DNA of 64,000 bases. Origin: Angustibacter sp. Root456 (lineage in GTDB: Bacteria; Actinomycetota; Actinomycetes; Actinomycetales; Angustibacteraceae). Positions 17,559-43,324 of the stretch are shown here, one piece after another. Below the pieces are notes generated by a model. The model worked only from the letters and a program-made list of their open reading frames with translations, did no database searches and was not told the DNA's origin. Numbering within the stretch: the stretch's first letter is position 1; every line of letters begins with the position of its first letter. The DNA lies in the NCBI RefSeq assembly GCF_001426435.1, contig NZ_LMER01000001.1:600147-664146 (forward strand). The letters are read 5' to 3'. The position numbers and the translations under genes are program-made.

Positions 17559-19403
17559 ATGACGACGGACGGAGCGGGCGAGATGGGACGACACGGGAAC
17601 CGCATGATCACCAAGGTGCTCATCGCCAACCGCGGCGAGATCGCGGTGCGCGTCGCCCGGGCCTGCCGAGACGCGGGGATCGCCTCGGTGGCGGTGTACG
17701 CCGACCCCGACCGCGACGCCCTGCACGTCAAGGTCGCCGACGAGGCCTACGCCCTCGGCGGCTCGACCCCCGGCGACTCCTACCTGGTGCAGGAGAAGCT
17801 GATCGCCGTCGCCAAGGAGTCGGGCGCTGACGCCGTCCACCCCGGCTACGGCTTCCTCTCCGAGAACGCCCACTTCGCCCAGGCCGTCATCGACGCCGGG
17901 CTCATCTGGGTCGGGCCTCCCCCGGCAGCCATCGACGCCCTCGGCGACAAGGTCAAGGCGCGCCACATCGCCGAGCGCGCGGGCGCCCCGCTCGTCGCCG
18001 GCACCAAGGACCCCGTGAACGACGCCGACGAGGTCATCGCCTTCGCCGACGAGCACGGCCTCCCCGTCGCCATCAAGGCGGCGTACGGCGGCGGCGGCCG
18101 CGGCCTGAAGGTCGCCCGCGAGCGCGACGAGATCGCGGAGCTGTACGAGTCCGCCGTGCGCGAGGCCGTGTCGGCGTTCGGTCGTGGAGAGTGCTTCGTC
18201 GAGAAGTACCTCGACAAGCCGCGCCACGTCGAGACCCAGTGCCTCGCCGACGAGCACGGCAACGTCGTGGTCGTCTCGACGCGTGACTGCTCGCTGCAGC
18301 GCCGCCACCAGAAGCTCGTCGAGGAGGCGCCCGCGCCCTTCCTCAGCGACGAGCAGGTCGCCGAGCTGTACCGCGCCTCCAAGGCGATCCTGCGCGAGGC
18401 CAACTACGTCGGGGCCGGCACCTGCGAGTTCCTCGTGGGCCAGGACGGCACCATCTCGTTCCTCGAGGTCAACACCCGCCTGCAGGTCGAGCACTGCGTC
18501 AGCGAGGAGGTCTCCGGTCTGGACCTCGTGCGCGAGCAGCTGCGCATCGCGGCAGGCGAGGAGCTCGGCTACGACGACCCCGAGCTGCGTGGGCACTCCA
18601 TCGAGTTCCGCATCAACGGCGAGGACGCCGGACGCAACTTCCTGCCCGCCCCCGGCTCGGTCACGGCGTTCCACCCGCCGACGGGGCCCGGCGTCCGGCT
18701 CGACTCGGGCGTGGAGTCCGGTGACGTCATCGCCGGTGCCTTCGACTCGATGCTCGCCAAGCTCATCATCACCGGCTCCTCGCGCCAGCACGCGATCGAG
18801 CGGTCGCGTCGGGCGCTGGACGAGTTCGTGATCGAGGGCATGCCGACGGTGCTGCCCTTCCACCGCGCCGTCGTGCGCGACGAGGCCTTTGCGCCTGCCG
18901 ACACCGAGGCGCCGTTCACCGTGCACACGCGCTGGATCGAGACCGAGTTCGACAACCAGATCGAGCCGTTCGCGGGCCCCGGCGCGCAGGGCGCTGAGCC
19001 AGAGGAGCGCCAGCAGGTCGTCGTCGAGGTCGGTGGCAAGCGGCTGGAGGTCTCGCTGCCGGCCGGGTTCGCCGTCGGTGGCAACGGCGGTGGCGCGGTC
19101 GCCAAGGCCAAGGCTCCCAAGCGCTCGGCGCGCGCTTCGTCCGGTGCGGCTGCAGGTGGGGACGCCCTCACCGCCCCGATGCAGGGCACGATCGTGAAGA
19201 TCACGGTGGAGGAAGGGCACGTCGTCGAAGCGGGCCAGCTCGTCGTCGTCCTCGAGGCCATGAAGATGGAGCAGCCCATCACCGCGCACAAGTCGGGAAT
19301 CATCACCGCGCTGCAAGCCGAGATCGGCCAGACCGTCACCAGCGGCGCCGTCCTGCTCGAGGTCAAGGACCACTCCGACGCCACCACCGCCACCACCGAG
19401 TAG
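17559..19403 (+). CDS. pccA: Acetyl/propionyl-CoA carboxylase alpha subunit (biotin carboxylase + BCCP)
   Basis: 614 aa. The biotin carboxylase domain starts at [19 protein letters not shown]. It contains [11 protein letters not shown], the ATP-grasp loop [13 protein letters not shown] and [10 protein letters not shown]. The C-terminal biotinyl domain has [10 protein letters not shown], with the biotinylated Lys569. Length and sequence match the AccA2/AccA3-type alpha chain shared by several carboxyltransferases, so it probably serves both PccB and the second beta subunit. The ATG at 17559 has GGAGGGAG at 17546-17553; an ATG at 17604 is an alternative. A -10 TAGGCT (17529-17534) overlaps the merR stop. 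Confidence 0.93.
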
Positions 19404-19413
19404 CCCCGACCTC

Positions 19414-19475
19414 GCAAATTCCCCGGAATTCGTCGCCTGGGCACCCTCCGGGCGTACAAGTTCCGGGGAATTTGC
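19414..19475. repeat. Long hairpin repeat, copy 1 (3' side of the DUF559 gene)
   Basis: The arms GCAAATTCCCCGGAA (19414-19428) and TTCCGGGGAATTTGC (19461-19475) pair perfectly over 15 bp. The interior continues with imperfect pairing, CGCCTGGG against CCGGGCG. It lies 11 nt beyond the DUF559 stop and 11 nt beyond the converging pccA stop, so it could also terminate both. It shares sequence and structure with copy 2 at 20448-20515. No U-run follows. Confidence 0.85.
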
Positions 19476-19485
19476 CGAGAGGTGG

Positions 19486-20364
19486 TCAGCGGGTGCGCTC
19501 GGCGATGGCGCCTCGCACCGCCGCCAGCAACAGCGACGGACGGCGCAGCATCTCAGCCGTCACAATGACGACCGTCCAGCCGGCAGCGCGCAACCCAGCA
19601 AGACGGTCGTTGTCGAGCCCGCGCTGCCGCTCCTCCTCGTGCCACCGACCGTCGTACTCGATGGCGATCTTGAGCTCGGGAATCGCGAGGTCAACGCGGG
19701 CGATGACCCGCCCGTCGACCCGGACGCGAAACTGCGGCACCGTCACGATGCCGTCCTCGTGCAGCAGCACTCGTGCACGCGACTCCGGCAGCGACTCGGC
19801 TCGAGGATCGACGAGCTCAGCCGCGCAGGCCGCTGCACGCACGTGGTGAACGCCCTGCTCGCCCAGCCATCGTCGGAAAGCCTGGACGTCGAGCAGTCCG
19901 GCCCGCACCAGGGCGTCGAGTCGGGCGGTGGCGTCCGGCAGATCAAGACCCGCTACGGCATCCAGTGCGAGTCGGTTCGCCTCAGCCAGCCGGACGCCGT
20001 CCAGCAGCCGCCCGACGCGCACAGGCCGCTGGCTCGTACGCACCTTCACGCCTTCGCGTTTGGGCGCCTTGACGCTCTCGGGTACGACTGCCAGCACGAT
20101 GTCGCCCCGCTGCGCGATGCGGACGCCGAGGACCGTGGCGGCCGAGGCACCGGTGATCACGGCCTCGTCGGGGAGAACCAGGCAGGCCGCCTGGCACTGC
20201 AGCTTGTGTGTGAGGGGCACCCAGCTGGGCCGATAGACGCCCTGCAGCACACGCTCGACGAACGGCCCGCGGAGCTGGCGGTCGGTCAGCAGACCCTGCG
20301 CGACGGCCTCACTACCGACAAACACGTCCGGTAGGGGCTCAGGGGGACGACGATGCTTCGGCAC
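19486..20364 (-). CDS. DUF559 (Vsr/PD-(D/E)xK-like) protein with AbiEi-like N-terminus
   Basis: 292 aa. The N-terminal 170 residues look like the AbiEi-antitoxin-like winged helix plus linker often fused to this family (LTDRQLRGPFVERVLQGVYR). The C-terminal DUF559 domain resembles very-short-patch-repair endonucleases. It carries ESRARVLLHEDG, VDLAIPELKIAIEYDGRWH and a final GWTVVIVTAEML; the Asp/Glu-x-Asp pattern suggests a nuclease site. Its true role is unknown. The GTG at 20364 has -10-like CATGCT ending 6 nt upstream. The gene is bracketed by two related hairpins, suggesting a mobile or repeat-associated cassette. Confidence 0.8.
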   Translation of the reverse strand: MPKHRRPPEPLPDVFVGSEAVAQGLLTDRQLRGPFVERVLQGVYRPSWVPLTHKLQCQAACLVLPDEAVITGASAATVLGVRIAQRGDIVLAVVPESVKAPKREGVKVRTSQRPVRVGRLLDGVRLAEANRLALDAVAGLDLPDATARLDALVRAGLLDVQAFRRWLGEQGVHHVRAAACAAELVDPRAESLPESRARVLLHEDGIVTVPQFRVRVDGRVIARVDLAIPELKIAIEYDGRWHEEERQRGLDNDRLAGLRAAGWTVVIVTAEMLRRPSLLLAAVRGAIAERTR

Positions 20365-20447
20365 CTGACGAGCATGGCGAAGTCGGCGTCACCGCTGCGG
20401 CGCCCGAGCCCGCACCTGTGGATAACCCCCTGAGCCCCATCAGAGGT

Positions 20448-20515
20448 CCGGCAAATTCTTGGGAAGTTGTACGCCTGGGTCCGCCCAGGCGTACAAGTTC
20501 CCAAGAATTTGCCGG
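20448..20515. repeat. Long hairpin repeat, copy 2 (5' side of the DUF559 gene)
   Basis: A 68-nt inverted repeat. Thirty-two positions per arm pair with a single G-G mismatch (20466/20497) around a TCCG loop (20480-20483). The left arm starts CCGGCAAATTCTTGGGAA and ends TTGTACGCCTGGG. Relative to copy 1, the inner stem changes from CCCCGG/CCGGGG to CTTGGG/CCCAAG on both arms, so pairing is kept. It lies 34 nt past the lpdA stop and 83 nt before the DUF559 start, so it may terminate lpdA as well. Confidence 0.88.
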
Positions 20516-20549
20516 AAGGGGGTGGTCAGGGGGTGGGAAGGGGGCGGGG

Positions 20550-21974
20550 TCAGGGGGCGGTGTGCAGCTGGCGCGCGGCCTCGGCGATCGAACCGGACAT
20601 CGACGGGTAGACCGTGAAGGTCGACGCCACCTGGTCGACCGTCAGCTTGGTCTGCACCGCGAGCGCCACCGGGAAGATCAGCTCGGAGGCGCGCGGGGCC
20701 ACGACGACGCCACCCATGACCTGGCCGGTTCCGCTGCGGCAGAACAACTTCACGAAGCCGTCGCGCACGTTCTGCATCTTGGCCCGAGGGTTGGTGGCGA
20801 GCGGCAGCATCACCGACTCGTAGGCGATGCCCGCTTGTTCGAGCGCCGGCACCGACCAGCCGACCGTGGCGATCTCAGGGTCGGTGAAGATGTTGGCGGC
20901 CACCGCGCGCAGGTTGAGGGGCTGGACGGCGTCCCCGAGGGCGTGCTGCATCGCGATGCGCCCCTGCATGGCCGCTACCGAGGCGAGCGGGAGCACGCCG
21001 GTGCAGTCCCCGGCCGCGTAGACCCCGCGCGCGGTGGTGCGGGACACGCCGTCGACCTGCACGTGACCGGACGCCGTCAGCTCCACCCCCGCGGTGTCGA
21101 GGCCGAGGTCGTCGGTGTTGGGCACCGACCCCACCGCCATGACGCAGTGCGAACCCGACACCGTGCGCCCGTCGGTGAGGGTCACGAGCACGCCGTCGCC
21201 GTCGCGCATCACCGACTGCGCGCGCGAGCGGTCGAGCACGTTCATGCCGCGCCGCCGGAAGACGTCCTCGATCACCTCGGCCGCATCGGGGTCCTCCCCC
21301 GGCAGGACGCGCTCGCGTGAGCTGACGAGCGTGACCTGGCTGCCGAGCCCGAGGTAGGCGTGGGCGAACTCCGCGCCCGTGACACCAGAGCCCACCACCA
21401 CCACGTGCTCCGGCACCTGCGTGAGGTCGTACACCTGCTGCCACGTGAGGATCCGCTCGCCGTCCGGGACGGCGGTGGGCAGCTCGCGCGGGCGGGCACC
21501 GGTGGAGATCAGGGCGACGTCGGTGTCGATGGTCGACGTGCCGCCGTCAGCCTGCTCGACCACGACGCGTTGGGCGCCGTCGAGCCGCCCGACACCGCGC
21601 ACGACCCGGATGCCGTCACGCTCGAGCCGCGCGGCGATGTCGTCACTCTGCGCTTGCGCCAGCTCGAGCACGCGGTGGTTGACCACCGCCAGGTCGGCGC
21701 TGGCCACCTGGCCGGGCTGCGGCGGCTCCGCCAGCTGGACGCCGTACCCGGCAGCCAGGAAGAACCGGCCCATGAAGTCGGCGGTGGAGATCAGCGCCTT
21801 GCTGGGCACGCAATCGGTGAGCACGGCAGCGCCACCGAGCCCGTCGCGGTCGACCACCGTCACCTCGGCACCCAGGTGCGCTGCCACGAGCGCGCTCTCG
21901 TACCCGCCCGGGCCGCCGCCGACGATGGCGACGCGGTGCGGACGGTTCGCGGTGGGGCTGCTCACGGCCACCAT
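20550..21974 (-). CDS. lpdA: NAD(P)H:quinone reductase, LpdA type
   Basis: 474 aa flavoprotein of the disulfide-reductase superfamily. The N-terminal FAD motif is VAIVGGGPGGYESALVAA; GVYAAGDCTGVLPLASVA is the second FAD motif. The usual redox pair CxxxxC is broken: the segment reads GGAAVLTDCVPSK, with Ala in place of the first Cys. The same change marks mycobacterial LpdA (Rv3303c), an NAD(P)H quinone reductase and not lipoamide dehydrogenase. The ATG at 21974 is used; in-frame GTGs at 21971 and 21965 are alternatives. It is divergent from the next gene across 28 nt. Confidence 0.9.
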   Translation of the reverse strand: MVAVSSPTANRPHRVAIVGGGPGGYESALVAAHLGAEVTVVDRDGLGGAAVLTDCVPSKALISTADFMGRFFLAAGYGVQLAEPPQPGQVASADLAVVNHRVLELAQAQSDDIAARLERDGIRVVRGVGRLDGAQRVVVEQADGGTSTIDTDVALISTGARPRELPTAVPDGERILTWQQVYDLTQVPEHVVVVGSGVTGAEFAHAYLGLGSQVTLVSSRERVLPGEDPDAAEVIEDVFRRRGMNVLDRSRAQSVMRDGDGVLVTLTDGRTVSGSHCVMAVGSVPNTDDLGLDTAGVELTASGHVQVDGVSRTTARGVYAAGDCTGVLPLASVAAMQGRIAMQHALGDAVQPLNLRAVAANIFTDPEIATVGWSVPALEQAGIAYESVMLPLATNPRAKMQNVRDGFVKLFCRSGTGQVMGGVVVAPRASELIFPVALAVQTKLTVDQVASTFTVYPSMSGSIAEAARQLHTAP

Positions 21975-36763: not shown

Positions 36764-36819
36764 GAGAGCAGAGAAGCTGGGCACTTCAGACCTCCACCGT
36801 GCCCCACTTCTCTGCTCTC
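36764..36819. terminator. Long hairpin after the deoC operon
   Basis: The arms GAGAGCAGAGAAGCTGGGCAC (36764-36784) and its complement (36799-36819) pair over 21 positions with two mismatches around a 14-nt loop. It lies 14 nt past the DUF1684 stop. No U-run follows, as is common for actinobacterial terminators. Its right arm ends exactly where the truncated DinB-like frame on the minus strand loses similarity, so it may be an inserted repeat rather than only a terminator. Confidence 0.7.
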
Positions 36820-43148: not shown

Positions 43149-43324
43149 GCGTATCCCCTTGGAGCAGTAGCTCGAGCGCCGGTTTCGCCCCTGGCTCCCC
43201 ACCCGACTGCAGGCGACCAATTGGCCGGGTGGCTCAGTGCCTCGCTCGGCGGCCGGACGACCCGACCACCTACCTCAACGGTGTCTGAGCGCGCCGCCCC
43301 GAACATCACCAGAATTGGGGAACT
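43149..43324 (-). promoter_or_regulatory. Structured leader candidate upstream of the TasA-like gene
   Basis: The 176-nt gap between the response regulator and the TasA-like gene contains several complementary segments on the minus strand. CCACCCG pairs with CGGGTGG around a CCAATTGG core, and GGAGC with GCTCC just before the ribosome-binding site. This may form a folded 5' leader. I could not match it to a known riboswitch class. Confidence 0.35.

Follow-up and report, generated by a model that had tools for sequence, protein, structure and literature searches.

In the genome of Angustibacter sp. Root456, a gene of the DUF559 endonuclease type lies between two long hairpins of related sequence. 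The window analysed here is a 64,000-nt stretch of that genome (3.84 Mb, hereafter G000), and its relevant features are collected in Table 1. A first-pass annotation of this DNA had reported that the two hairpins share sequence blocks in the same order, and that the intervening gene joins an AbiEi-like N-terminus to a Vsr-like nuclease domain. Both statements are borne out, the former by the sequences of the two copies and the latter by profile matches of the encoded protein. Hairpin 1 sits between the convergent stops of a carboxylase gene (ending at 19403) and the DUF559 gene (ending at 19486), while hairpin 2 stands roughly 34 nt past the stop of an lpd-like gene and is also upstream of the DUF559 gene. 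The names given to the neighbours, carboxylase alpha subunit and lpd-like, come from reading of the sequence. A covariance model, built with these same copies, scores the hairpins at 71.9 and 86.5 bits, respectively. Rfam has no match at either one; its sole match in the window at gathering threshold is a c-di-GMP-II-GAG riboswitch (43169-43253, minus strand, 47.3 bits).

Table 1. Features of the window relevant to the DUF559 locus (positions in the window; a dot marks features given without strand)
Feature	Position	Strand	Basis or remark
Hairpin 1, family 1	19412-19477 (copy 1 proper 19414-19475, 62 nt)	.	Sequence, gene context
DUF559 gene (292 aa), coding for a Vsr/EDxHD-like nuclease domain behind an AbiEi-like N-terminal region	19486-20364	-	
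Nuclease core, residues 222-270	19555-19701	-	Stretch matched by MTES_1575
AbiEi-like region, residues 36-140	19945-20259	-	Best PADLOC AbiEi model
Hairpin 2, family 1	20451-20512, palindrome reaching 20447-20516	.	Sequence
lpd-like gene	20550-21974	-	Named by reading of sequence
Dispersed family-2 copy	36764-36819	.	About 14 nt past a stop codon

Taken alone, the window protein matches two Pfam families without reaching the curated cut-off of either, MTES_1575 at E 7.1e-4 and DUF559 at E 1.4e-3; the PADLOC AbiEi model gives E 5.2e-5. Across 31 relatives, at E 0.01 or better, MTES_1575 is matched by 28 and DUF559 by 17, and AbiEi models match the N-terminal half (the commonest model in 15 of the 31 members). 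No transposase family appears among the profile matches of these members at the same threshold, the rest being nuclease or AbiEi families. When compared with the PDB, the profile of the 31 relatives finds 3hrl (E 3e-6) and 3r3p (E 3.6e-5), a "mobile intron protein" that we take to be I-Bth0305I; PvuRts1I and Vsr are reached only at E 0.1-0.6. Residues S191, E194, D225 and G239 are invariant among the relatives and E236 and Y237 nearly so. All six fall in and just before the nuclease core, a pattern that would be expected of an active PD-(D/E)XK/EDxHD site. Several members also match defence models (PADLOC mREase_II in 8/31 and PDC-S37 in 6/31, NCBIfam antiphage_ProA in 3/31), so a role in defence is conceivable. 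A single-sequence fold of the protein (mean pLDDT 40.7) was not used. Genes of this kind are common: across the order, 123 of 149 genomes (counting G000) contain a match to the window protein. The possibility that they are phage or plasmid cargo was rejected, as the protein is found in none of 50,697 phage records and in four of 72,556 plasmid records, one of which is 11.85 Mb long.

With respect to the flanking repeats, we scored bracketing as the best local alignment between the 350 nt before and the 350 nt after a gene, taking 20 as the threshold. By this measure, 28 of 35 DUF559 genes of the order (six of G000 and 29 loci of other genomes, including the same-genus genome G001) share a repeat between both flanks, as against 3 of 170 control genes of G000. 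Hairpins therefore do track DUF559 genes, a link that the first-pass annotation had proposed to look for and whose absence, with the hairpins found simply as terminators, would have told against it. One of the seven genes below threshold (L049) owes its place there to a wrongly set start; scored from the correct one (L200), it reaches 63. Moreover, two of the three control positives are themselves flanked by DUF559-linked families, namely L015 (family 1) and L049 2251-3369 (the L200 family). The latter gene (contig 20, near 702 kb) reads as class II fructose-bisphosphate aldolase-like and carries on its flanks the repeat family of the adjoining DUF559 gene. In other genomes, 20 stretches of which were scored, brackets were found at 15 of 18 DUF559 genes versus 4 of 173 neighbours (Fisher P 4e-16), although these 18 genes largely overlap the 35 and thus amount to a second control rather than a second sample.

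The same arrangement extends beyond the order. Specifically, 17 of 28 evaluated DUF559 loci from the wider phylum score at least 20 and 11 fall below; this set began as 29 loci, one of which was dropped for a short flank, and it includes four from the order as well as L167, which is the gene already counted as L122. Three of four DUF559 genes from named records of the plasmid collection are bracketed. In Tsukamurella tyrosinosolvens NCTC13231, WP_170181047.1 has 64-nt hairpins on both sides and a second DUF559 gene has inverted 72-nt repeats; the third is in Arthrobacter sp. ERGS1:01, and the gene of Nonomuraea gerenzanensis, whose ends are approximate, is not bracketed by score. The Tsukamurella hairpin occurs in eight records of the same organism (20 places) and, at the sensitivity used, in no other of the 72,556 plasmid records. 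All five DUF559 genes examined in G001 are bracketed. The brackets vary in form, being either single hairpins or short arrays of motifs in inverted order. Of 49 bracketed loci, our palindrome test found one or more palindromic copies in 32 (median 52 nt, typically 44-61 nt, with a median arm of 19 nt and spacer of 15 nt) and none in 17. Taken together, these observations make the pairing of DUF559 genes with flanking repeats close to certain.

We also asked whose motif each gene carries. Twelve bracket motifs were searched together in their 12 source genomes and in G000, with 40 candidates scored per genome. All 12 source genomes were matched, among the matches listed always by their own motif, and G000 gave no match to the 12 foreign ones. 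Copies outside the DUF559 locus were present, among the matches listed, in nine of the 12 genomes; the matches listed for G071, G114 and G023 extend no further than the locus. Within G000, a profile of 31 proteins finds 12 DUF559 matches, two of them weak and partial; nine of the ten others are bracketed on both sides, while at the tenth (C20:56546) the family stands on the upstream side alone. When seven hairpin families of G000 were compared with the 12 matches, the resulting matrix was diagonal. Family 1 pairs with the window gene, family 2 with C20:557k, family 3 with C20:93k, family 4 with C14:431k, family 5 with C3:10k, family c6 with C16:151k and family c4 with C20:56k. For six single-copy control hairpins of the same genome, no DUF559 locus scored above 13.

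Not all of these matrix entries carry equal weight. The references for families 2, 3 and 4 are the downstream brackets of the very loci being scored, so only the upstream scores (26, 36 and 26) are independent, while those for families 1, 5, c4 and c6 come from elsewhere than the scored brackets. Families c4 and c6 had first been taken as control hairpins and proved to be repeated, in at least seven and at least four places; a partner DUF559 gene was predicted for each before being found, and both were then found. Copy numbers in G000 for families other than family 1 are lower bounds, as 40 of 179 candidates were scored. Family 2 recovered only itself among these candidates, and its dispersed copy in the window was seen separately. 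The cognate DUF559 gene of this copy is on contig 20 near 557.6 kb, and the copy has a local score of 21.5 to the family-2 hairpin versus a maximum of 11 for up to 2000 random window pieces. The brackets of L200 and L201 have dispersed copies in the G000 sequence examined, and that of L204 has none there. The pairing is thus specific both within and between genomes, and the proposal that such hairpins flank DUF559 genes holds in general, except that the other DUF559 genes of G000 carry families of their own rather than family 1.

Comparison with G001 reveals how gene and motif change together. The carboxylase and lpd neighbours are kept there at 85 and 80% DNA identity, and between them lies a DUF559 gene of 52% protein identity in the opposite orientation, with a hairpin on each side whose sequence, CACCATTCGCGCTTGACGTG..., differs from that of family 1. 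This CACCATTCGCGCTTGACGTG family is itself dispersed in G001 (15 arm matches, and at least 17 places outside the locus among the matches listed) and has no match in G000. The carboxylase-DUF559-lpd locus is also found in G042 and G057, which belong to another family, with yet other motifs, indicating that the gene stays in place while its motif changes. Relatives with the gene at this locus therefore do have flanking repeats, of other sequence; their lack had been named in advance as a reason to doubt the link. Five other relatives have DUF559 genes of 45-52% identity beside different neighbours, and one of eight relative stretches inspected (L143) gave no DUF559 match.

Five gene pairs could be compared between G000 and G001. 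Four of them lie at conserved loci, and the fifth, C3:10k, has no neighbours in common over the stretches examined. The motif is shared at 60, 64 and 70% protein identity and unrelated at 43 and 52%. Across 49 bracketed loci out of 57, the 57 having been chosen largely for being bracketed, a shared motif was found in 3/3 pairs at 70% identity or above, in 2/80 at 45-70% and in 0/1093 below 45%. Protein and motif accordingly co-change.

Family 1 is spread through G000 in about 25 copies, the two at the window locus included, in agreement with the dispersal anticipated for a mobile repeat. A blastn search with copy 1 reaches 23 distinct places, far more than chance would give, all with E values of 2e-4 or lower and the strongest non-self match at 2.9e-15. 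The arm pattern GCAAATTCNNNGGNA, which has 31 matches in G000 and none when reversed as a control, adds two more. This pattern has no match in 18 relatives, one of them of the same genus. Across 84,980 named species represented by a single genome each, a collection from which the source genome is possibly absent, it finds three unrelated hairpins. Aligning the 25 copies yields a consensus that opens with CGGCAAATTC and consists of CGGCAAATTCCCCGGAAnTTGTACGCCTGGG, a short loop and the complementary arm, with arms of about 28 nt. The family-1 covariance model also gives weaker matches in other genomes (L111, L114 and L210, 25-38 bits compared with 60-87), all of them at bracket hairpins, which we read as matches of shape. 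The window hairpin has no match in phage records. An unrelated 68-nt hairpin was seen in Saccharopolyspora oryzae (L050 2972-3039), with the base GCAAATTC...GAATTTGC and an inner stem resembling other families of the present account.

If copies have moved, junctions without them should exist in a sister genome. We prepared 23 family-1 junctions, searched about half of them in G001 and located eight, none of which holds a family-1 copy. No hairpin of the CACCATTCGCGCTTGACGTG family is among those listed at these places either. Six of the eight are without any hairpin, one has a weak unrelated hairpin, and at one an acid-phosphatase-like gene stands between two hairpins that belong to another G001 family. 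In one case a gene pair separated by a hairpin in G000 shows, according to our own gene caller, a 4-nt overlap in G001. No target-site duplication is readable at the G001 empty sites, the divergence being too great. The copies are thus dispersed, and present or absent by lineage, in line with the empty sites that the first-pass annotation had suggested seeking. The acid-phosphatase-like (HAD) gene (L135 1783-2821) is absent from the same junction of G000, and the motif bracketing it resembles the bracket of a G001 DUF559 gene in L212; possibly it is passenger cargo.

The placement of family 1 bears on what the copies do. Using gene calls from our own script, 22 of the 25 lie at most 37 nt from a stop codon (median 13.5); the other three comprise one that is convergent on inspection and two between divergent genes (C2:30061 among them). 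Convergent gene pairs are enriched at the copies, with 10-11 of 24 as compared with 38 of 256 gene pairs at the same loci. The hairpins also fold strongly as RNA (-24 to -58 kcal/mol). A stem just past a stop codon fits an intrinsic terminator, so it could be argued from these three features that the hairpins are ordinary bidirectional terminators multiplied by chance, with the DUF559 gene merely caught between two of them. No T run follows the stem in the 24 copies inspected, the located G001 junctions do without family-1 hairpins, and six single-copy hairpins of G000 have no DUF559 link. Bracketing is specific to DUF559 genes, each with a motif of its own. Plain terminators were rejected on this specificity and on the diagonal matrix of families and genes, and we regard such an origin as very improbable.

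A different function is suggested by the AbiEi-like region and by the weak matches to defence models. Here the DUF559 protein, as a sequence-specific regulator or a defence nuclease, would control its own expression in the AbiEi manner, with the palindromes as its operators and the dispersed copies forming its regulon. AbiEi antitoxins are described as binding their own promoter at inverted repeats (PMC7319586), and one bracket copy does lie upstream of the DUF559 gene. The second bracket copy, however, lies at or past a stop codon, and the dispersed family-1 copies likewise follow stops rather than occupy promoters, with only two of 25 between divergent genes. This reading is also at odds with the absence of family-1 copies from the located G001 junctions, and we consider it distinctly improbable.

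In terms of the hairpin itself, it had been claimed that both arms change together and, from this, that structure is under selection. Joint change is indeed present, since both-sided change occurs in 10 of 28 pairs of the family-1 alignment and pairing is higher than in shuffles (87.5 versus 85.5% of cells, with none of 500 shuffles as high). Against this, a manual count gives hybrid arms in seven of the 25 copies (e.g., CCCCGG/CTTGGG, CTTGGG/CTTGGG and CCCCGG/CCCCGG); window copy 2 is the only one with the symmetric CTTGGG/CCCAAG pair. Covariation of the family-1 arms is therefore real but modest, and the claim of selected structure built on it weakens accordingly. RNA structure as the main selected feature was rejected on the hybrid arms and the modest pairing excess. 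Such covariation fits two-fold recognition by a protein at least as well as RNA structure. In single arms of family-1 copies, e.g., C20:728484, C20:673673 and C2:30061, the inner TTCNNNNGAA block is flipped or swapped, as though short blocks that are palindromes in themselves were inverting or being exchanged. On reading, this block of C20:673673 could pair through G-U on one strand; in C20:538891, which has a tandem setting, the transcribed strand pairs no better by sequence, so no strand rule holds.

Orientation of the gene adds a further element. Between G000 and G001, two loci show the DUF559 gene flipped within its pair of repeats and against its neighbours, namely the window locus and C20:557k (where G000 carries about 1.8 kb extra on one side); the gene keeps its orientation at C20:93k and C20:704k. 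It is not itself hopping at the window locus, which it shares with G001, G042 and G057; three further DUF559 loci are common to G000 and G001. Inversion raises the prospect that the sole role of the brackets is to flip or swap the DUF559 cassette at loci that stay fixed, the dispersed copies being a by-product of recombination. Several brackets are inverted repeats, and protein and motif both differ at two conserved loci. Yet orientation is kept at C20:93k and C20:704k, homologous recombination between any inverted repeats would flip a gene without a dedicated function, and the 25 dispersed copies at unrelated genes are left unexplained. On these grounds, a role confined to inversion or exchange appears unlikely.

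With moderate confidence, we favour instead the view that the cognate DUF559 nuclease recognises and spreads its repeats, arranged like REP elements and their RAYT partners with an unrelated enzyme. The first-pass annotation had seen a resemblance to REP/RAYT with a nuclease-fold protein, and bracketing, dispersal and junctions without copies all support it. Judged from the sequence comparisons above, recognition by the nuclease of its own repeat is likely, and spreading by the nuclease would be the best explanation of the copies, which could also owe their spread to other machinery. The window locus would then be one member of a class of paired elements, each composed of an AbiEi-DUF559 nuclease gene and two private repeats, whose non-autonomous copies would have spread through the genome to come to rest mostly just past stop codons.

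How this might proceed can be sketched. The AbiEi-like part may read one arm, with two protein molecules on the inverted repeat, and the nuclease domain may cut at or in the repeat. Host repair would then copy or rejoin the freed repeat at other breaks and would sometimes rejoin the whole cassette, which would account for the flips. End-joining repair is common in actinobacteria, and spreading possibly relies on it. Copies would survive best at gene ends, perhaps in use as terminators, and their placement there may reflect tolerance, terminator use or both.

On a broader scale, we think the odds are somewhat better than even that AbiEi-DUF559 nucleases form a so far undescribed, apparently phylum-wide class, each recognising and spreading its own repeat, selfish or domesticated. 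Many independent pairs would coexist per genome, with protein and motif co-changing, and the REP/RAYT way of life would have been invented a second time, with an unrelated nuclease. No earlier description of a DUF559/palindrome pairing was found in the open-access literature, surveyed at record level. This proposal gives the common, unexplained DUF559 genes a concrete candidate target and accounts for a set of lineage-specific hairpins at gene ends. With dozens of natural protein-DNA pairs whose specificity seems to have co-changed, a code linking nuclease and repeat is directly testable. If it is true, the pairing of palindromic repeats with an enzyme of their own has evolved two or more times.

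Several known systems bear comparison with this arrangement. Classical MITEs and insertion sequences have terminal inverted repeats with target-site duplications and leave clean empty sites; family 1 is absent at the eight located G001 junctions, where duplications are unreadable at such divergence. The Vsr mismatch endonuclease, MTES_1575 REase and DUF559 are the families matching the C-terminal domain, and the open-access literature, at record level, shows no link of Vsr or DUF559 to palindromic repeats. The nuclease core of the DUF559 proteins also resembles EDxHD homing endonucleases through the 3r3p match. No intron or intein was seen, however, and in place of an uninterrupted target site the DNA concerned lies to either side of the gene and recurs across the genome. 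The N-terminal region is related to antitoxins of the AbiE type IV toxin-antitoxin systems (AbiEi and Rv2827c), which differ from the DUF559 protein in lacking its C-terminal nuclease domain. The DUF559 repeats, moreover, stand on both sides of the gene and are dispersed, and the neighbours in the window, where an AbiE system would have an AbiEii toxin gene following AbiEi, read as metabolic genes. As given in portions of the respective papers, I-Bth0305I binds nearly 60 bp as a dimer (PMC3943268), AbiEi occupies two 23-bp inverted repeats with 3 bp between them, and Rv2827c binds pairs with 13 bp between them (PMC7319586). Such a dimer target and such paired repeats have a geometry like that of the palindromes described here.

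The closest likeness is to REP/RAYT systems (REPtrons and TIRtrons). As described in passages of PMC2817692 and PMC3733652, these have a single nuclease-type gene flanked by two palindrome or inverted-repeat copies. Their REP families are dispersed intergenically, near stops and between convergent genes, with several repeat-specific genes per genome. DUF559 genes are likewise flanked by two cognate palindromes or inverted repeats, at the frequencies given above, and their linked copies are dispersed at gene ends in genome-specific families. There are also differences. Family 1 lacks the GTAG head and other brackets differ freely in sequence; bracket palindromes are typically longer than the 20-40 nt of REPs; and the copy number of family 1 is low, unlike that of the abundant REPs, which usually exceed 100 per genome. 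The enzyme itself is a DUF559/Vsr-EDxHD nuclease with an AbiEi-like region rather than an HUH (Y1) tyrosine transposase, and being unrelated to RAYT, the DUF559 protein is not a RAYT.
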